Origin: Armatimonas rosea
GTDB taxonomy: Bacteria; Armatimonadota; Armatimonadia; Armatimonadales; Armatimonadaceae
DNA: 64,000 nt
Direction: 5' to 3'
Assembly: GCF_014202505.1 (NCBI RefSeq)
Contig: NZ_JACHGW010000001.1
Location: 248,001-312,000 of the forward strand
Shown: positions 19,974 to 49,683 of the stretch, piece by piece
Position numbering within the stretch: position 1 is the stretch's first letter
Layout: each line of letters begins with the position of its first letter
Program-made: the position numbers and the translations under genes
The notes under the pieces: generated by a model
What the model was told of the DNA's origin: nothing
Database searches by the model: none
The model's input: the letters and a program-made list of their open reading frames with translations, nothing else

Positions 19974-21413
19974 ATGAAGAACCACGCTTGCCATCGGTTT
20001 CAGCGCGCCCTCTCGCGCCGTGAGCTCCTCCAGACCAGCGCGTCGGGCTTTGGGATGCTCGCCCTTGCTGGGCTCCTCGCCGACGAAGCCAAAGCGGCGG
20101 AGAACCCGCTTGCGCCCAAGAAGCCGCACTTTCCCGCAAAAGCCAAGCGCGTGATCTTTCTGTTCATGCACGGGGGACCGTCGCAGGTGGACACCTTCGA
20201 CCCCAAGCCGCTCCTCACGCGCGACAGTGGCAAGCCCTACAGCGGCCAGCGCCCGCGCGTGGTCTTTGCCCAGACCGGCAACCTGCTCGGCTCTCCGTGG
20301 AAGTTCAACCACTACGGCAAGTGCGGCACCGAGGTCAGCGATCTCTTCCCCAATGTCGCCCAGTGTGTCGATGAGATGTGCGTCATCCGCTCGCTCCACG
20401 GTAGCAACCCGGCCCATGGCGGCGCGCTGCTCAAGGTCCACACCGGCACCGATGTCGGGATTCGACCGTCGATGGGGAGCTGGGCGGTCTATGGTCTTGG
20501 GACAGAGAACCAGAACCTGCCGGGCTACGTGACCATCTGCCCCACGCTGGGCCATGGCGGTGTCCAGAACTGGAGCTCCGCGTTCCTGCCCGCCTGGACC
20601 CAGGGCACCCCGATCGGCAATGCGTCGGTGAAGGCCAAAGAGGCCAAGCTCGCGCACCTAGGCAACGCCGATGCGTCGGCGGCGCTCCAGCGCCTCCAGC
20701 TCGATAATCTCCACGCTCTAGACTCCGAGCAGCTCAGCCACTGGGGCGTGGACCCGGTCTTGGAGGGCCGTATCCAGAGCTTCGAGCTCGCCTTCCGCAT
20801 GCAGGTCGAGGCCCCCAAGCTCATGGATATCTCCGGCGAGACCCAGGCGACCCTGGACATGTACGGTATCGACAAGGACCCCACCGACAACTTCGGGCGG
20901 CAGTGCCTCTTGGCGCGGCGCTTCTGCGAGGCCGGGGTGCGCTTTGTGCAAGTGACCCACTCCTACAAGTGGGACCAGCACGGCGATCTCAAGAACGGCC
21001 ACACCAGGAACGCCGCGGAAGTAGACAAGCCGATTGCGGGGCTCCTCAAGGACCTCAAGCAGCGCGGGCTCTTGGAAGACACGCTCGTGCTCTGGGGTGG
21101 GGAGTTTGGCCGCACGCCCACAGCCCAAGGCGGCGATGGGCGCGACCACAACCCGCACGGCTTCACGATGTGGATGGCGGGCGGCGGGGTCAACCCCGGC
21201 ACGACCTACGGCTCCACCGACGACTACGGCTGGTTCGCGGAGGGCGACAAGTGCCACATCCACGACCTCCACGCCACCATGCTCCATCTCCTTGGCATCG
21301 ACCACACCAAGCTCACCTACCGCTACGCCGGCCGCGACTATCGCCTCACCGATGTAGAGGGAGTTGTGGCAGCAAAGGTCCTCAAAGACCCTAGCTCGCT
21401 CAAGCTGGTGTAA
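19974..21413 (+). CDS. DUF1501 protein, Tat-exported (stand-alone copy)
   Basis: This 479-aa DUF1501 protein belongs to the alkaline phosphatase/sulfatase-like fold family. It has a Tat signal (LSRRELLQTSASGFGMLALA). Family motifs include RVIFLFMHGGPSQVDTFDPK, CLLARRFCEAGVRFVQVTHS, WGGEFGRTPTAQGGDGRDHN and HATMLHLLGIDHTKLTYRYA. The catalytic role of the family is unproven. Unlike the copies at 36209 and 45072, it has no DUF1549/1553 partner next to it. Its promoter lies back to back with that of the AfsR-like regulator. Confidence 0.9.
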   Translation: MKNHACHRFQRALSRRELLQTSASGFGMLALAGLLADEAKAAENPLAPKKPHFPAKAKRVIFLFMHGGPSQVDTFDPKPLLTRDSGKPYSGQRPRVVFAQTGNLLGSPWKFNHYGKCGTEVSDLFPNVAQCVDEMCVIRSLHGSNPAHGGALLKVHTGTDVGIRPSMGSWAVYGLGTENQNLPGYVTICPTLGHGGVQNWSSAFLPAWTQGTPIGNASVKAKEAKLAHLGNADASAALQRLQLDNLHALDSEQLSHWGVDPVLEGRIQSFELAFRMQVEAPKLMDISGETQATLDMYGIDKDPTDNFGRQCLLARRFCEAGVRFVQVTHSYKWDQHGDLKNGHTRNAAEVDKPIAGLLKDLKQRGLLEDTLVLWGGEFGRTPTAQGGDGRDHNPHGFTMWMAGGGVNPGTTYGSTDDYGWFAEGDKCHIHDLHATMLHLLGIDHTKLTYRYAGRDYRLTDVEGVVAAKVLKDPSSLKLV

Positions 21414-25333: not shown

Positions 25334-25403
25334 AGCAAACCTCCAGGCAAGAGTATAGCGGCATTCTCTAGAATAATCAAACAACTGTTTGTTAAATTTT
25401 TAA

Positions 25404-25533
25404 ATCGCCCCTTCCCAACACAAAGGCCCCCGCCCATCCCGCGTTTATTCGGTAATGGCCGGAGGCCTTTGTGTCGGAGCCTGCGACGACAGCAAGACGC
25501 CCCGTCCATGGGGGCGATCTAACCGGGGCGATC
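25404..25533. repeat. MITE-like repeat, family D (copy 1)
   Basis: The ends are ATCGCCCC (25404-25411) and GGGGCGAT (25525-25532). Inside is a perfect 11-bp inverted repeat ACACAAAGGCC (25418-25428) / GGCCTTTGTGT (25464-25474). The ACAAAGGCCTnCGGCCAT core and the ends match copy 2 at 46477-46604. The element's last bases overlap the TAG stop of the helix-hairpin-helix gene. Confidence 0.8.
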
Positions 25534-36208: not shown

Positions 36209-37690
36209 ATGACCGAACTAGAACTACTACAAGCCCGCGCGATGTCGCGGCGGACGTTTTTTGGCAAGACAGGCCTCGGGCTGGGCGCACTGGCGCTCGC
36301 CGGTATAGAAGCCCAAGCCACCCCCTCTCGTCCCTGCGAAGCAGGAACACCCAGAGGGTACCCGGCGAGAGGGGGTCGCGAGGAACGAGCGGGGGGAGTG
36401 CCTGGGGCGAGAGCCAAGGCCGTGATCTACCTGCACATGTCCGGCGCTCCACCATCGCTGGACCTCTTTGACTACAAGCCCAAGCTAACCGAGCTCCACA
36501 TGCAAGACTGCCCGGACTCGTATCTCAAAGGAGAGCGGCTCGCTTTTATCAAGGGCAAGCCCAAGCTCCTCGGCTCGCCACACAAGTTCAAGCAGTACGG
36601 CCAGACCGGGGCCTGGGTCTCGGATGTCTTGCCGCACACGGCCAGCATCGCCGATGAGCTGGCAGTCATTCACTCGATGTGCACCGAGCAGTTCAACCAT
36701 GCGCCCGCCGAGCTCTTTTTGTACACCGGCAACGCCTTTCCCGGTGGCGCGGCGATGGGCTCGTGGATGACCTACGGGATCGGCTCGGCCAACAAGGACC
36801 TGCCCGGTTTTGTCGTGCTGCTCTCGGGTGGCACCGACCCCACAGGGGGCAAGAGCCTCTGGTCCAGTGGGTTTCTGCCCAGCATTCACCAGGGGGTCCA
36901 GTGCCGCTCCGCAGGCGACCCGATCCTCTACCTCTCCGACCCGCCGGGAATGGATCGGCAGACACGGCGGCGCAGCCTGGATGCCCTCGAAAAACTCAAC
37001 CGGCAAGAGGCGGCGGCGCTCGGTGACCCGGAGACCGTCACGCGCATCTCGCAGTACGAGCTGGCCTACCGCATGCAGCTCTCCGTACCGGAGCTGATGG
37101 ATATCAAGAAAGAGTCCCAGGCAACCCTCGAGATGTACGGCGCGAAGCCAGGCGAGTCAAGTTTTGCGAATAACTGTCTTTTAGCACGAAGGCTTGTGGA
37201 GAAAGGCGTCCGCTATGTCCAGCTCTACGACTGGGGCTGGGACATCCATGGCACGGGGCCGGGCGATGACCTCATGACCGCGCTTCCGGGCAAGTGCCGT
37301 GACACGGACAAGGCGTGTGCCGCGCTGATCAAGGACCTCAAGCAGCGCGGGATGCTCGACGATGTCTTGGTGGTCTGGGGCGGGGAGTTTGGCCGCACCC
37401 CCATGAACGAGGCGCGCGGCGGGAGCAAGTTCCTCGGCCGCGACCACAACCCCAATTCCTTTACGATCTGGATGGCGGGTGGCGGCACCAAGCCCGGTAT
37501 CTACGGCCAGACCGATGAGCTGGGCTACAAGGTGGTGGAGAATAAAATGACCATCCGCGACCTTCAAGCCACGATCCTAGACCGTGTCGGCCTCGATCCC
37601 TACAAGCTCCACTACGATTATCAGGGCCTCGGAAACCGCCTGATCGGCCCCACCGACGAAGGCCGCGTGATTGCGGCACTGAAAAAATAA
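36209..37690 (+). CDS. DUF1501 protein, Tat-exported, partner of the 33393 gene
   Basis: This 493-aa DUF1501 protein has a Tat signal (MSRRTFFGKTGLGLGALALA, residues 12-31), then a repeat-encoded stretch (about 38-66) exactly behind the expected cleavage site. The family core follows: AVIYLHMSGAPPSLDLFDYK, CLLARRLVEKGVRYVQLYD, WGGEFGRTPMNEARGG, FLGRDHNPNSFTIWMAGGG. The ATG at 36209 was chosen for the GAAGGGA site before it and for a complete Tat signal. It lies between its DUF1549/1553 partner and an M28 peptidase gene (1 bp away). Confidence 0.92.
   Translation: MTELELLQARAMSRRTFFGKTGLGLGALALAGIEAQATPSRPCEAGTPRGYPARGGREERAGGVPGARAKAVIYLHMSGAPPSLDLFDYKPKLTELHMQDCPDSYLKGERLAFIKGKPKLLGSPHKFKQYGQTGAWVSDVLPHTASIADELAVIHSMCTEQFNHAPAELFLYTGNAFPGGAAMGSWMTYGIGSANKDLPGFVVLLSGGTDPTGGKSLWSSGFLPSIHQGVQCRSAGDPILYLSDPPGMDRQTRRRSLDALEKLNRQEAAALGDPETVTRISQYELAYRMQLSVPELMDIKKESQATLEMYGAKPGESSFANNCLLARRLVEKGVRYVQLYDWGWDIHGTGPGDDLMTALPGKCRDTDKACAALIKDLKQRGMLDDVLVVWGGEFGRTPMNEARGGSKFLGRDHNPNSFTIWMAGGGTKPGIYGQTDELGYKVVENKMTIRDLQATILDRVGLDPYKLHYDYQGLGNRLIGPTDEGRVIAALKK
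36320..36403. repeat. Palindromic repeat inside the DUF1501 gene
   Basis: ACCCCCTCTCG (36320-36330) and CGAGAGGGGGT (36366-36376) are a perfect 11-bp inverted pair around smaller hairpins. A GC-rich tail runs to about 36403. The insert is translated in frame directly after the Tat signal. Confidence 0.65.
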
Positions 37691-45071: not shown

Positions 45072-46463
45072 TTACACTCCCTTTGCCAGTAAGGCCCCGA
45101 TAGGCTTCCCGAGGCCGTCGCGCGTGACATAGAACGGGCGCTTCTCCACCTCGTAGGCGTGCTTGGGCGAGATCCCCAGCGTATGGTAGATCGTCGCGTG
45201 CAGGTCCTCGATTACCACCGGGTTCTCGACCGTCTTGCACGGGCGCTCGTCAGCGGTCTTGCCATAGACAAAGCCTTTTTTCACGCCCCCGCCAAACATC
45301 AAAACACTTCCGGCGTCGGTGAAGTGCCGGTGCATCCCGTAGAACTTGGGCTCATTGACAATATCCGGGACGGTCACCTGGTCGCGGACACGGGCATCGG
45401 GCTTGCCCTCCATCATCATGTCGCGCGAGAACTCCGATGCCAGCACGATCAGGGTCCGGTCCAGCAGGCCACGCTCTTCGAGGTCTTTAACAAGCTGCGC
45501 GATGGGCGCGTCGATCTGGCGCTTCATCTCGGTCAGGCGCGTGTGGCCGTTATCGTGGGTGTCCCAGCCAAAGAACGGAACATACTCGGTGGTGACTTCG
45601 ATATAGCGCGCTCCGGCCTCACGCAGGCGGCGTGCCAGCAAGCACCCTTGGCCAAAGCGCCCGGTGTTGTAGCTATCGTAGCTGGCCTTGGGCTCTTTTG
45701 TCAGGTCAAAGGCGGCGGCGGCGGGCGACGACAGCAAGCGATGGGCGTTGTCCAGCGAGCGCAGCAGGCTCTCTTTCTGGTAGTCCGAGCCCACTTTCCC
45801 GACTAGGGACTCTCCGACCAGCTTTTTATAGAGCGCCTGGCGGTTCTCAAAGCGCGACGGTGTCATGCCCGCCGGGGGGCGCACAGCCTCGACCGCCTGA
45901 TCCGGGTAGGGCAGGTTGAAGGGGCCAAACTCGCTCCCCAGAAAGCCCGCCGTGGTAAATGCCTTGAGCTCCTCGCCCTCCCCGACATCGAAGCGCTGCC
46001 CGATATTGATAAACGCCGGGACGGCCTCATTCAGCGGCCCGAGGGTCCGCGCGATCACCGAGCCAATGTGCGGCGCCGCGACTGTCTGCGGCGGCGCGTA
46101 GCCGGTGTGCCAGTGGTACTGGTGGCGCGAGTGCAGGATCGCCCCCAGATCGCCCGCCCGGTAGGTGCGGATCAGGGTCGCCCGGTCCATCACCTGCGCG
46201 ATCTTCTCCAGCCCCTGCGAGAGCTGCACCCCGTCCACGACTGTCGGGATCGCCGGAAAGGTCGAGAGGATCTTCTCCGAGGGCGTCCCGGTCTCGTAGG
46301 GCGTGTAGCGCTTGGGGTCGAAGGTCTCGGTGTGGGCCATTCCGCCGCCCATCCACAAGACAATCACCGCATCCGCGGTCGCCTTCGGGGCGGGCTGCGC
46401 GGCCCAGAGCGGGCGGGCATAGCCCGCCGCCAGTGCGGATAAAAGTAGCTCTCGTCGGTTCAT
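45072..46463 (-). CDS. DUF1501 protein, partner of the 46603 gene
   Basis: This 463-aa DUF1501 protein has a short exported N-terminus (MNRRELLLSALAAGYARPLW). Motifs are AVIVLWMGGGMAHTETFDPK, CLLARRLREAGARYIEVTTE, GWDTHDNGHTRLTEMKRQID, LASEFSRDMMMEG and HATIYHTLGISPKHAYEVEK. It has SEFSRD where the other two copies have GEFGRT, so it belongs to a different branch. AAGGA before the ATG gives a leadered start. The family D repeat separates it from its upstream partner, 139 bp away. Confidence 0.9.
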   Translation of the reverse strand: MNRRELLLSALAAGYARPLWAAQPAPKATADAVIVLWMGGGMAHTETFDPKRYTPYETGTPSEKILSTFPAIPTVVDGVQLSQGLEKIAQVMDRATLIRTYRAGDLGAILHSRHQYHWHTGYAPPQTVAAPHIGSVIARTLGPLNEAVPAFINIGQRFDVGEGEELKAFTTAGFLGSEFGPFNLPYPDQAVEAVRPPAGMTPSRFENRQALYKKLVGESLVGKVGSDYQKESLLRSLDNAHRLLSSPAAAAFDLTKEPKASYDSYNTGRFGQGCLLARRLREAGARYIEVTTEYVPFFGWDTHDNGHTRLTEMKRQIDAPIAQLVKDLEERGLLDRTLIVLASEFSRDMMMEGKPDARVRDQVTVPDIVNEPKFYGMHRHFTDAGSVLMFGGGVKKGFVYGKTADERPCKTVENPVVIEDLHATIYHTLGISPKHAYEVEKRPFYVTRDGLGKPIGALLAKGV

Positions 46464-46476
46464 TTTCTATTCCTTG

Positions 46477-46604
46477 GATCGCCCCCGTAGGAGGGGGGCG
46501 TCAACGGGCGTTCCGCCACAAAGGCCTTCGGCCATACCGAATTATGGGCGGAGCCCTTCCCAGCACGAAGTGCTCGTTGACGCCCCGCTCTAACCGGGGC
46601 GATC
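46477..46604. repeat. MITE-like repeat, family D (copy 2)
   Basis: Imperfect 30-bp terminal inverted repeats (46477-46506 and 46575-46604) both begin GATCGCCCC and end GGGGCGTCAACG when read inward. The interior carries ACAAAGGCCTTCGGCCAT and the AGCACGAAGTGCT hairpin. Its last bases overlap the TGA stop of the DUF1549/1553 gene, which begins at 46603. Confidence 0.85.
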
Positions 46605-48942
46605 AATACAGCTGAAACTCCGGGCTCATCAGGAGCGCCCATAAAATATCTTCCAGTGCCTCGGGGGTGAGCTTGGTGCCCACCGCTTGGCGGATCGTGG
46701 CCCGCTCCGTGGTTGTGGGCGGGCGGCTCAGCGCGGTCTGGTAGAGGCCGTTGAGCACATCCTCGCCGTTGCCTGCGTGACGGAGCCAGGTGGACGCGCC
46801 GGTTTTGAGGCGGGCGGAGAGGAGCGGGCCGTTGGTCAGCTCTAGCGCCTGAAGCGTCGTGGCGACACTCTGGCGTTGCGTGACGGTCTGCTCCCGGTTG
46901 GGCCGTCCTAGGGCGCGGGTGAAGGCATCAGCGGTGGTGAGTGCGGCGCGGGCCTCGATCAGGGCATGGGCGGCTCCCACCACCGCAAAGCGCACCGAGA
47001 CCTCCTTGGGTGCCTCCTCGACCGCGCCTTGGTCCGGCCCGACCAGTGCACGGAAGCGGGTCGCGCCCTTGGGGACCTCATAGATCAGCAGGGAGTTGGC
47101 GTGGGTTCCGATTCCCTCGCCGTAGGTCTTCCCCGCGAGGCGCAGGGGCTTGCCGACGATGCTCTTGTCTTTCTGGATGGTCCCAAAGCCCGTGGTCGCG
47201 GATAGTAGGACACAGTCATCGGCATCGCGCTCGGTGTTGTCGGGGAAGCCAAAGTGCGGCTCGACCCAGTCCGCCCAGTCGTGGTTGGCGTTGCCGTTGC
47301 CATCGGTGGCGGCCAGCACGAGAATCTCTGCGCCAGTGATATCCACATCGACTTGCTTTGCCCCGGAGCGCAGTAGTCCACTGTCGAAGAGCACCTTGCC
47401 CGTGCGCTTGGGGACACTGACCACACCCTTGTTGATCCGTAGCGTCTCCACCGGCGTGGGCCAGCTCTCGGTCAGGGTAGAGATCGCATCGGTGAGCTGC
47501 TCGGCGGAGAGGCGCTTGACCGCAGGGCCGGTGAAGACATAGCCGCTCGGCTTCTCTTTCGCCAGCCCCTGCGACGGCAGCTGATACGCGCGGCTCGTGG
47601 CGATCTGGGCCAGCGTGTGCTTGAGGTCGTAGCCGTGGGCCACAAAATCGCTCGCCAGCCAGTCCAGTAGCGCTGGGTTCCAGGGCTTGTGGTCCAGCTC
47701 GTCGTTGGGCTCGACCAGGCCGCGCCCCATGAGCTTGGTCCAGAGCCGGTTGACAACCGTCCGGGCGAAGCGGCCGTTGGCGGGCGAGGTCAGCGCCGCC
47801 GCGACTTGGGCGCGCCGGGTTGCCAGGGGCGCGTTGCCATCGACACTGCCCAGCTCGGGCCACAAAAACTTAGCGCTCGCCATGGTTCCCGTGGGCTTGT
47901 CGCAGCGCACCAGCTCCAGCGGGGTGTCTGAGAACGCCGTGGCCAGGCCGTAGGCATCGCGCAGCTTCCAGTTGCTGGTGAAGCTATCGTGGCACGATGC
48001 GCACTTGAGGTTCACGCCCAGAAACACCTGCCCGATATTCTGCGCCGCTTGGAGCGGGGGGCGCTGGCTGGCATTGACCACGCCACGCCAGACAATTCCT
48101 TTGATAAAACCCTCGGACTCCGGGCTTGGCGGGGCGACCAGCTCGCGCACAAACTGGTCGTAGGGCTTGTTGCTCTCCAGAGATGCATACAGCCAGCTCG
48201 TGATCTGGCTCCGGCCACCGTCGATATAGCCCGTCCCGACATAGTCGTTGCGGAGCGCATCGTTCCAGAAGGTCAGCCAGTGCTCGGTGTAGTTCTTCGT
48301 GTCGGCCAAGAGGCTCGCCACCAGCCGCTCACGCTTATCGGGGCGCGTGTCCAGCACAAACGCCGTGGTCTGCCGCGGCGACGGTAGCAGGCCCACTAAA
48401 TCCAAGTACGCCCGCCGCACAAAGACCCGGTCGCTGACAATCGCTCCCGGCGCGACTTTCTTCGCCGCAAAGTACGGCGCGAGCAAGCGATCCACCGGGT
48501 TACCTTGGCCCGCGGGGACATTCACCGGCACCAGTGCCAATGGCGGTGTCCAGGCCGCGTCCTCGTTCTCCGCCGCGCCATCGAACGGCAGGCCCGCATC
48601 GATCCAGCGCCGGAGTGTCTCGACCTCGCTGGCCTTGAGGTGCGCCCCCTGCGGCGGCATCACCCCTTTCGCTACCAGCTCGATCAAATAGCTCTGCGCC
48701 CCCTTACCGGGCCGCGCGACCGGATGGGTCTTGCCGCCGGTGAGGATCGCCTCCCGGCTATCGAGCGAGAAGTCTCCCTGCTTGGCCCCGTTGCTATGGC
48801 ACGACGAGCAGTTCTTCTTCAGGATCGGCAGCACATCGCGCTGGTACGAGACTGCCTTTTGCGTCGTCTGCACCTTCTGCGCGCCCAGCGCCATCACGCT
48901 CAGACCACCCAGCGCCAGCGCTCCCACAAGCCTACGAATCAT
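46603..48942 (-). CDS. Cytochrome c / DUF1549 / NPCBM / DUF1553 exported protein
   Basis: This 779-aa protein has a signal peptide (MIRRLVGALALGGLSVMALG) and a heme motif CSSCH in PILKKNCSSCHSNGAK. DUF1549 follows, with KCASCH, then DUF1553. An NPCBM-type sugar-binding domain is inserted near residues 585-700 (GKTYGEGIGTHANSLLIYEV). It differs from the 33393 protein, which carries a discoidin domain. The start at 48942 was chosen for its signal peptide and for TATCAT 7 nt upstream; the frame is open 44 codons further but without signals. It is followed by a repeat, then DUF1501. Confidence 0.9.
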   Translation of the reverse strand: MIRRLVGALALGGLSVMALGAQKVQTTQKAVSYQRDVLPILKKNCSSCHSNGAKQGDFSLDSREAILTGGKTHPVARPGKGAQSYLIELVAKGVMPPQGAHLKASEVETLRRWIDAGLPFDGAAENEDAAWTPPLALVPVNVPAGQGNPVDRLLAPYFAAKKVAPGAIVSDRVFVRRAYLDLVGLLPSPRQTTAFVLDTRPDKRERLVASLLADTKNYTEHWLTFWNDALRNDYVGTGYIDGGRSQITSWLYASLESNKPYDQFVRELVAPPSPESEGFIKGIVWRGVVNASQRPPLQAAQNIGQVFLGVNLKCASCHDSFTSNWKLRDAYGLATAFSDTPLELVRCDKPTGTMASAKFLWPELGSVDGNAPLATRRAQVAAALTSPANGRFARTVVNRLWTKLMGRGLVEPNDELDHKPWNPALLDWLASDFVAHGYDLKHTLAQIATSRAYQLPSQGLAKEKPSGYVFTGPAVKRLSAEQLTDAISTLTESWPTPVETLRINKGVVSVPKRTGKVLFDSGLLRSGAKQVDVDITGAEILVLAATDGNGNANHDWADWVEPHFGFPDNTERDADDCVLLSATTGFGTIQKDKSIVGKPLRLAGKTYGEGIGTHANSLLIYEVPKGATRFRALVGPDQGAVEEAPKEVSVRFAVVGAAHALIEARAALTTADAFTRALGRPNREQTVTQRQSVATTLQALELTNGPLLSARLKTGASTWLRHAGNGEDVLNGLYQTALSRPPTTTERATIRQAVGTKLTPEALEDILWALLMSPEFQLY

Positions 48943-48949
48943 GCTTGCT

Positions 48950-48955
48950 ATGATA
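48950..48955 (-). promoter_or_regulatory. Leaderless -10 box of the second DUF1549/1553 operon
   Basis: TATCAT ends 7 nt before the ATG at 48942. Confidence 0.55.
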
Positions 48956-49008
48956 CCGAAATTCTCCAAACAACACCGGGCCATGATAAAACAAATCCGA
49001 GGTGCAAG

Positions 49009-49683
49009 ATGGCTGGACCGTTTCCGGGCATGGACCCGTTTCTGGAGAAACCTGGCTTCTGGCAGGAGTTTCACAACAGCTTCATTGCTCTTCTTAATAT
49101 CGTTATCAATCGCGAACTACCCTCACGTTTTCTCTCCTATACCCAAGTAAGAATGATCCAGGACGAGGATGAGTTTCGTCGTGAAGCCTACCTGGAAATT
49201 TTTGATAGAACCAACCGGAGCCATGTCGTGATGGTCATTGAGCTGCTTAGCCCTGAGAATAAGCATGGCAAGGGGCGGGAAGAGTACCAGCGTAAGCAAC
49301 AAGCAGTCCTTCAGAGTCAGGCACATCTGCTGGAGATTGACCTCCTTCGTGGGGGAGAGCATACGGTTGCTGCTCCTCGGGAGGGAGCACTCGCTCTGGG
49401 GAGCTACTCCTATCTCCTGAGCCTTGCCAATGCCCAAGAACCGGGCAAGATTCTGCTCTGGCGCATCGGACTTGCCGACCGCCTTCCCATGCTAGAGCTT
49501 CCTCTCACCGCTGATGTCCCACCCTTCACGCTCGATCTTCAGGCCGTCTTCGACCGCTGCTACGACGAAAACCGCTACGCGGAGCTCCTCGAAGTTGCCT
49601 ACACCCAGTCCGCTGAACCCACCTTCACTGAGGAAGAAGCCGCTTGGTCACACGAGTGTCTGGAGGGCTACGTGGTATCCTAG
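49009..49683 (+). CDS. DUF4058 family protein, shortened
   Basis: This 224-aa protein starts with the DUF4058 signature (GPFPGMDPFLEKPGFWQEFH). It has REAYLEI, then VIELLSPENKHGKGREEYQR and AHLLEIDLLRGGEH. Members are usually larger: between the N-terminal block and REAYLEI about 50 residues of the common form are missing here. Function unknown. It starts behind CGAGGTG and is divergent from the DUF1549/1553 gene. The region is less GC-rich than its neighbours, which suggests transfer. Confidence 0.8.
   Translation: MAGPFPGMDPFLEKPGFWQEFHNSFIALLNIVINRELPSRFLSYTQVRMIQDEDEFRREAYLEIFDRTNRSHVVMVIELLSPENKHGKGREEYQRKQQAVLQSQAHLLEIDLLRGGEHTVAAPREGALALGSYSYLLSLANAQEPGKILLWRIGLADRLPMLELPLTADVPPFTLDLQAVFDRCYDENRYAELLEVAYTQSAEPTFTEEEAAWSHECLEGYVVS

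Follow-up and report, generated by a model that had tools for sequence, protein, structure and literature searches.

The locus considered here lies within an operon of the window (the whole 64-kb stretch of DNA that was analysed), where a 128-bp imperfect palindrome separates two genes encoded on the minus strand. Its arms, at 46477-46509 and 46572-46604, are 33 nt each and 85% complementary, with 62 nt between them, and its final two bases overlap the TGA stop codon of the preceding gene. In what follows G000 is the genome of the window, G001 a sister genome of the same genus and G014 a relative of the same order. The features at the locus, together with the second family-D copy in the window, are:

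45072-46463, minus strand: downstream operon gene, DUF1501, with a 97% identical orthologue in G001
46477-46604, no strand assigned: complete palindromic element of subfamily D1, delimited by its inverted arms, fold, copies and empty sites in G001 and G014
46480-46500, plus strand: left terminal hairpin H1, predicted from sequence, 7-bp stem and loop GTAGGAG
46507-46517, plus strand: left hairpin H2, predicted from sequence, GGCG-TTC-CGCC
46523-46533, plus strand: left hairpin H3, predicted from sequence, GGCC-TTC-GGCC
46534-46545, no strand assigned: short, variable central segment; in the L029 and L033 units the transposase gene lies at this point
46546-46556, minus strand: right hairpin H3, predicted from sequence, GGGC-TCC-GCCC on the minus strand
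46562-46574, minus strand: right hairpin H2, predicted from sequence, AGCAC-TTC-GTGCT on the minus strand, unlike the left H2
46581-46601, minus strand: right terminal hairpin H1, predicted from sequence, loop GTTAGAG on the minus strand
46603-49074, minus strand: upstream operon gene, DUF1549/DUF1553 with PSCyt1 and NPCBM domains, whose TGA stop touches the element
about 25401-25533, no strand assigned: copy of the sister subfamily D2, separate from the inserted element

The first-pass annotation had described the segment as bounded by 30-bp imperfect terminal inverted repeats. Inverted arms are indeed present, although they measure 33 nt and are composites of smaller hairpins instead of simple repeats, each half running in the order terminal hairpin H1, linker, H2 and H3. 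The predicted fold is very stable on either strand, reaching -84.9 kcal/mol for the element strand compared to -52.2 +/- 4.2 for shuffled sequences (z -7.9; none of 200 shuffles was as good). Two folds, a long hairpin and a clover, have been proposed for such doublets by Bertels and Rainey (PMC3116915). The minimum-energy fold predicted for the element is the long hairpin and not the clover, which counts against a model based on the small hairpins.

Co-variation among the copies points the other way. In total 79 halves were analysed, of which 72 could be parsed for H1, 78 for H2 and 74 for H3; the left side of L048 was excluded, as it is not element sequence. Fully paired H1 stems were found in 63 of the 72 halves, compared to a mean of 28.5 and a maximum of 41 when the 3' arms were shuffled (2000 shuffles), and fully paired H3 stems in 73 of 74 (shuffles: mean 44.7, maximum 57). 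The pair closing the H1 loop is C-G in 38 of the 72 halves, G-C in 31 and a mismatch in three, while the commonest loop, GTTGGAG, is present in 41 of 72. Between the two halves of one copy such agreement is missing: H2 was identical in none of 38 copies, the closing pair agreed in 13 of 33, and the similarity of halves within a copy (0.688) equalled that of mismatched halves (0.690; 39 copies, permutation p 0.59). Because co-variation is tight within a half and absent between halves, it is apparently the small hairpins that are maintained and not a single long one. The kinship of the copies inflates the result of the shuffles, and for this reason the contrast between the two tests outweighs either of them alone; taken together, the co-variation data favour small, clover-like hairpins over the long hairpin.

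The element belongs to a family that is dispersed in G000. Within the 64-kb window the 32-nt core motif is found a single time, compared to none expected. A search of the genome with the element gave 81 matches at 40 distinct places, and 86 matches were obtained with a pattern describing the terminal hairpin, compared to none with the control pattern. Twenty further regions were examined, nineteen of which contained related sequence (the remaining one, L237, had the terminal hairpin alone), so that at least 59 related places are present in this genome. Two subfamilies can be told apart by their linker, which is TCAACG in D1, to which the window element belongs, and TCTTGCT or similar in D2. 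Matches to the element were confined to G000 and G001 among the 41 genomes searched, and plasmid records searched at distant sensitivity returned none. Genomic context was classified for 27 of the 40 copies, 13 being too near the locus edge: 13 lie between convergent predicted genes, 10 between co-directional ones and two inside a predicted ORF.

Neither a target motif nor a target duplication could be established for the family, which counts against reading it as a mobile element. Insertion into a fixed short palindrome, CGCCCCCGTT..AACGGGGGCG, was considered and found to be unsupported in that exact form, since the pattern has no occurrence in the genome. A loosely defined outer half-site resembling CCCCGTT stands before roughly half of the ends (18 of 40 on the left, 21 of 40 on the right), and in just five of 40 copies does the pairing of the outer flanks exceed the 95th percentile obtained with mismatched copies. 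At L019:1476-1662 an element is centred in a 25-bp outer palindrome.

Other repeats are also found in the window. A palindromic copy at 21431-21559 matches the flanking repeats of the transposase unit L034 (94.7% over 38 nt) and represents a different family with its own enzyme, and a short segment at 23919-23947 matches the flanking repeat of the transposase gene L031 (86% over 29 nt).

Seven genes of the Y1_Tnp type were identified in G000, all of which are flanked by inverted repeats scoring above 100 shuffles of their own flanks. Family-D halves flank two of the seven, L033 (C1:1634678) and L029 (C2:819986), both located outside the window. At its right end the L033 unit shares 32 identical nt with window positions 46572-46603. 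Its left terminal hairpin differs from that of the element, so that the unit is a mosaic, which counts against L033 as the partner of the element. L029 is the counterpart of the sister subfamily D2: window positions 25455-25533, within the D2 copy, match the repeats flanking it (86.6% over 82 columns, E 4e-22).

The catalytic motifs DHVH and Y...Q..HH are intact in the six G000 TnpA proteins that were aligned, and Y...Q..HH is present in all seven genes. NCBIfam scoring covered six of the seven proteins, all of which passed the IS200/IS605 model (transpos_IS200; 66-74 bits, cut-off 55) and failed the REP_Tyr_transpos model (25-36 bits, cut-off 80). The L033 enzyme matched solved Y1 transposases with E values from 1e-7 to 0.01. 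The L034 enzyme is short, with 118 residues, and its gene may be broken.

Counterparts of these units in G001 were informative for four of the seven; L028, L029 and L031 gave no clear outcome. The positions of L033 and L032 hold a lone hairpin, L034 is represented by a remnant and L030 by a unit with an internal deletion. As the L030 and L034 units are decayed remnants in G001, TnpA genes are also inherited and lost, and the units decay as well as possibly move. The lone hairpins facing L033 and L032 in the sister genome (L188 and L195) are of the H1 type, as if each were a leftover end or a landing site. At another G001 locus, L203, a transposase gene lies between 135-nt arms, each of which is itself a palindromic element.

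The history of the window site was investigated by comparison with G001 and G014. In G001 the orthologous gene pair, with DNA identities of 89.7% and 90.5% to either side, is separated by 8 nt from stop to start and carries no element; in the outgroup G014 (45% protein identity) the orthologous pair has an 11-nt gap, likewise empty. Since both relatives are without the element, the empty state is ancestral by parsimony, and on this comparison of sequences the element at 46477-46604 is an insertion that took place in the lineage of G000. No target-site duplication was visible when the window site was compared to the empty site of G001. Insertion into an operon had already been proposed in the first-pass annotation, from the observation that the equivalent genes of another operon in the window lie 5 bp apart, and both points hold: in that operon 5 nt separate the last base of the stop codon (36203) from the following ATG (36209), and the DUF1501 paralogue there is located at C1:284698 (window 36698). 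It had further reported no matching transposase in the window, in agreement with the position of L033 outside it, and proposed a genome search for a transposase gene between element-like ends, which returned L033 for this subfamily and L029 for D2. The absence of any related transposase, combined with occupation of the site in all relatives, had been named as the outcome that would speak against its reading; a transposase with related ends exists and both relatives are empty at the site. DUF1501 paralogues are numerous in both genomes (43 matches in G000 and 39 in G001; within the window for example 20088-21347, 36698-37606 and 45072-46463).

The empty sites bear directly on the possibility that the segment is a host regulatory hairpin (an attenuator, an RNA-processing site or a terminator) kept for its function, its repetitive nature being secondary. 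Such a role would be in keeping with the very stable fold on either strand and with the position between co-directional genes, a context shared by ten of the 27 classified copies, 13 being convergent. We nevertheless rank it low because the site is empty in both G001 and G014. In addition, no terminator-like site was found in 46400-46680, the element gave no promoter match, there was no Rfam match in window positions 20000-50000, and the same family surrounds transposase genes. Altogether a regulatory origin is improbable, while a secondary effect of the inserted element on the operon may occur.

Comparison of other G000 copies with G001 gave a more varied picture. Among 14 such copies, clean empty sites with no palindrome left were found at L002, L006 and L008, and the L012 site is occupied in G001 by 557 nt of unrelated sequence. 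At L003, L010 and L016 the sister genome has other, unrelated short palindromes, and at L009 and L015 a full-size element of a different subfamily occupies the same intergenic site (L175 and L171, respectively); L004, L005, L007, L011 and L013 gave no clear outcome. Together with the window locus, none of the 15 sites compared had the same subfamily in both species, five of the 15 being without clear outcome. The palindromes and other-subfamily elements at five of the 14 G001 sites could mean that these are old, repeatedly remodelled sites instead of fresh insertions. For the L009/L175 and L015/L171 pairs one can consider insertion more than once, replacement, or rapid remodelling of a single old copy. 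When the flanks of ten G001 copies were compared to those of the G000 copies no clear match was found; three local matches, at 71-78% across 151-289 columns, were unconvincing.

On these grounds it could be argued that old intergenic palindromes have recombined or undergone gene conversion, and that the two species differ because sites were remodelled, with no current transposition. The two sites with an element of a different subfamily and the three with other palindromes are what such a process would leave behind. It does not fit the window locus and L002, L006 and L008, which are cleanly empty in G001 with no palindrome remaining, nor the lack of any site, among the 15 compared (five without clear outcome), with the same subfamily in both species, and we regard it as slightly less probable even than a regulatory hairpin. 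A classical MITE whose terminal inverted repeats are cut by a DDE transposase, as the inverted arms, the lack of coding capacity and the many copies might suggest, is very improbable, given that a target duplication was not seen at the window site, that the arms are built up of hairpins, with no co-variation between the two sides, and that the gene found between matching halves encodes a Y1 enzyme.

The 128-bp unit is thus very probably a non-autonomous, REPIN-like mobile element, most likely moved by a Y1/HUH TnpA encoded elsewhere in the genome. The first-pass annotation, which named it the best candidate for such an element in complete form, agrees with the element family, with the TnpA genes bearing matching ends and with the empty ancestral site. 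With its two inverted halves of three short hairpins each, the element amounts to a transposase unit minus its gene. Enzymes of the IS200/IS605 and TnpA-REP types recognise hairpins in single-stranded DNA and cleave next to them, and by analogy with them we infer how recognition, cutting and single-strand movement would proceed; that this TnpA is the one responsible is likewise a deduction. A Y1/HUH TnpA with an IS200-like core and the Y...Q..HH motif would recognise the small hairpins of a half in single-stranded DNA, for instance on the lagging-strand template, and would cut at both ends, after which the single-stranded element would be moved or copied. A new extragenic site would then receive it, in the present case directly after a stop codon inside an operon.

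Whether this arrangement extends beyond G000 was evaluated with relatives of the L033 enzyme, of which the best 80 of 271 were kept, a sample biased to close relatives. In named genomes the best relatives include Armatimonadota, a phylum to which the host of the window would accordingly belong; no record title among the best 80 of 271 points to a Cyanobacterium. The flank test covered 79 of these best 80 (L127 was too short): a flanking inverted repeat above its own shuffles was present in 66 of the 79, 63 of them with z > 6, and Y...Q..HH in 74 of the 79. Adding the seven G000 genes to this sample of the best 80 of 271, flanking repeats above shuffles were found at 73 of 86 loci, and 54 of 86 exceeded the 99th percentile of cross-locus pairings; the arrangement is shared with other phyla. 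The 13 loci without a repeat above shuffles, again among the best 80 of 271 and G000, include those of Algoriphagus litoralis and Arundinibacter roseus. When the arms of 12 strong-repeat loci were searched in their own genomes, all 12 gave matches, from 4 to 57 per genome, numbers that also count the match of an arm to itself and to the other arms of the query; in G049 the four matches are all on one contig beside the gene. GTAG or its complement, which may or may not act as a REP foot, is contained in 31 of the 66 arms. We lean, if only modestly, towards the view that IS200-like TnpA enzymes with Y...Q..HH are single-strand transposases that mobilise repeats, are widespread across many bacterial phyla and have each their own population of multi-hairpin inverted elements, in which the small hairpins (clover) are the functional fold and the two halves are kept different.

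Among the closest known systems are REPIN/REPtron-RAYT systems (PMC3116915, PMC6006769), with which the present one shares extragenic inverted hairpin doublets that are non-autonomous and mostly located between genes, a Y1 gene flanked by the same units and a separate repeat family for each TnpA. Unlike in REPINs, the GTAG foot is missing here (a GTAG loop occurs in one of 79 halves) and each half has three hairpins instead of one; unlike RAYTs, the TnpA has an IS200-like character and the Y...Q..HH motif, and does not reach the cut-off of the REP-associated model. With IS200/IS605 the system shares an enzyme core that passes the NCBIfam cut-off, hairpins near both ends and no target duplication seen, whereas its ends are inverted multi-hairpin arrays and five of its TnpA show 40-65% identity to the first, not being near-identical copies.

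TIRtrons were named by Di Nocera 2013 (PMC3733652) for Y1 genes (TIRYTs) within long inverted repeats whose copies are dispersed, some of them self-complementary, and the L029 and L033 repeats likewise have copies dispersed in G000. The repeats described here differ in being modular multi-hairpin arrays. Quentin 2018 (PMC6006769) assigned the 26 published TIRYTs to subclasses 2.1, 2.2 and 2.5 and not to 1.2; they have Y..NP-type motifs compared to Y...Q..HH here, a comparison made by motif only. Subclass 1.2 of TnpA_Y1, defined by Y...Q..HH, is tabulated in that survey as lacking REPs and, in general, typical terminal structures (Quentin 2018, PMC6006769). The enzymes described here resemble it in DHVH, the W motif, Y...Q..HH and a length of about 150-190 aa, an assignment made by motif, and depart from its tabulated description (PMC6006769) in having flanking, dispersed repeats at most loci tested. 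In open-licence papers we found no report of the element or of repeats for subclass 1.2. A transposase group listed without a partner in the main survey would gain one, and an IS200-type enzyme would fill a role that is elsewhere assigned to RAYTs, a point relevant to the origin of REP systems from insertion sequences. Mobility can be tested directly in the two genomes of the same genus, given their clean empty sites and the seven different transposase units. Judged by its sequence features, the system works like a derivative of REPINs or TIRtrons, with an enzyme that by motif belongs to a different group.
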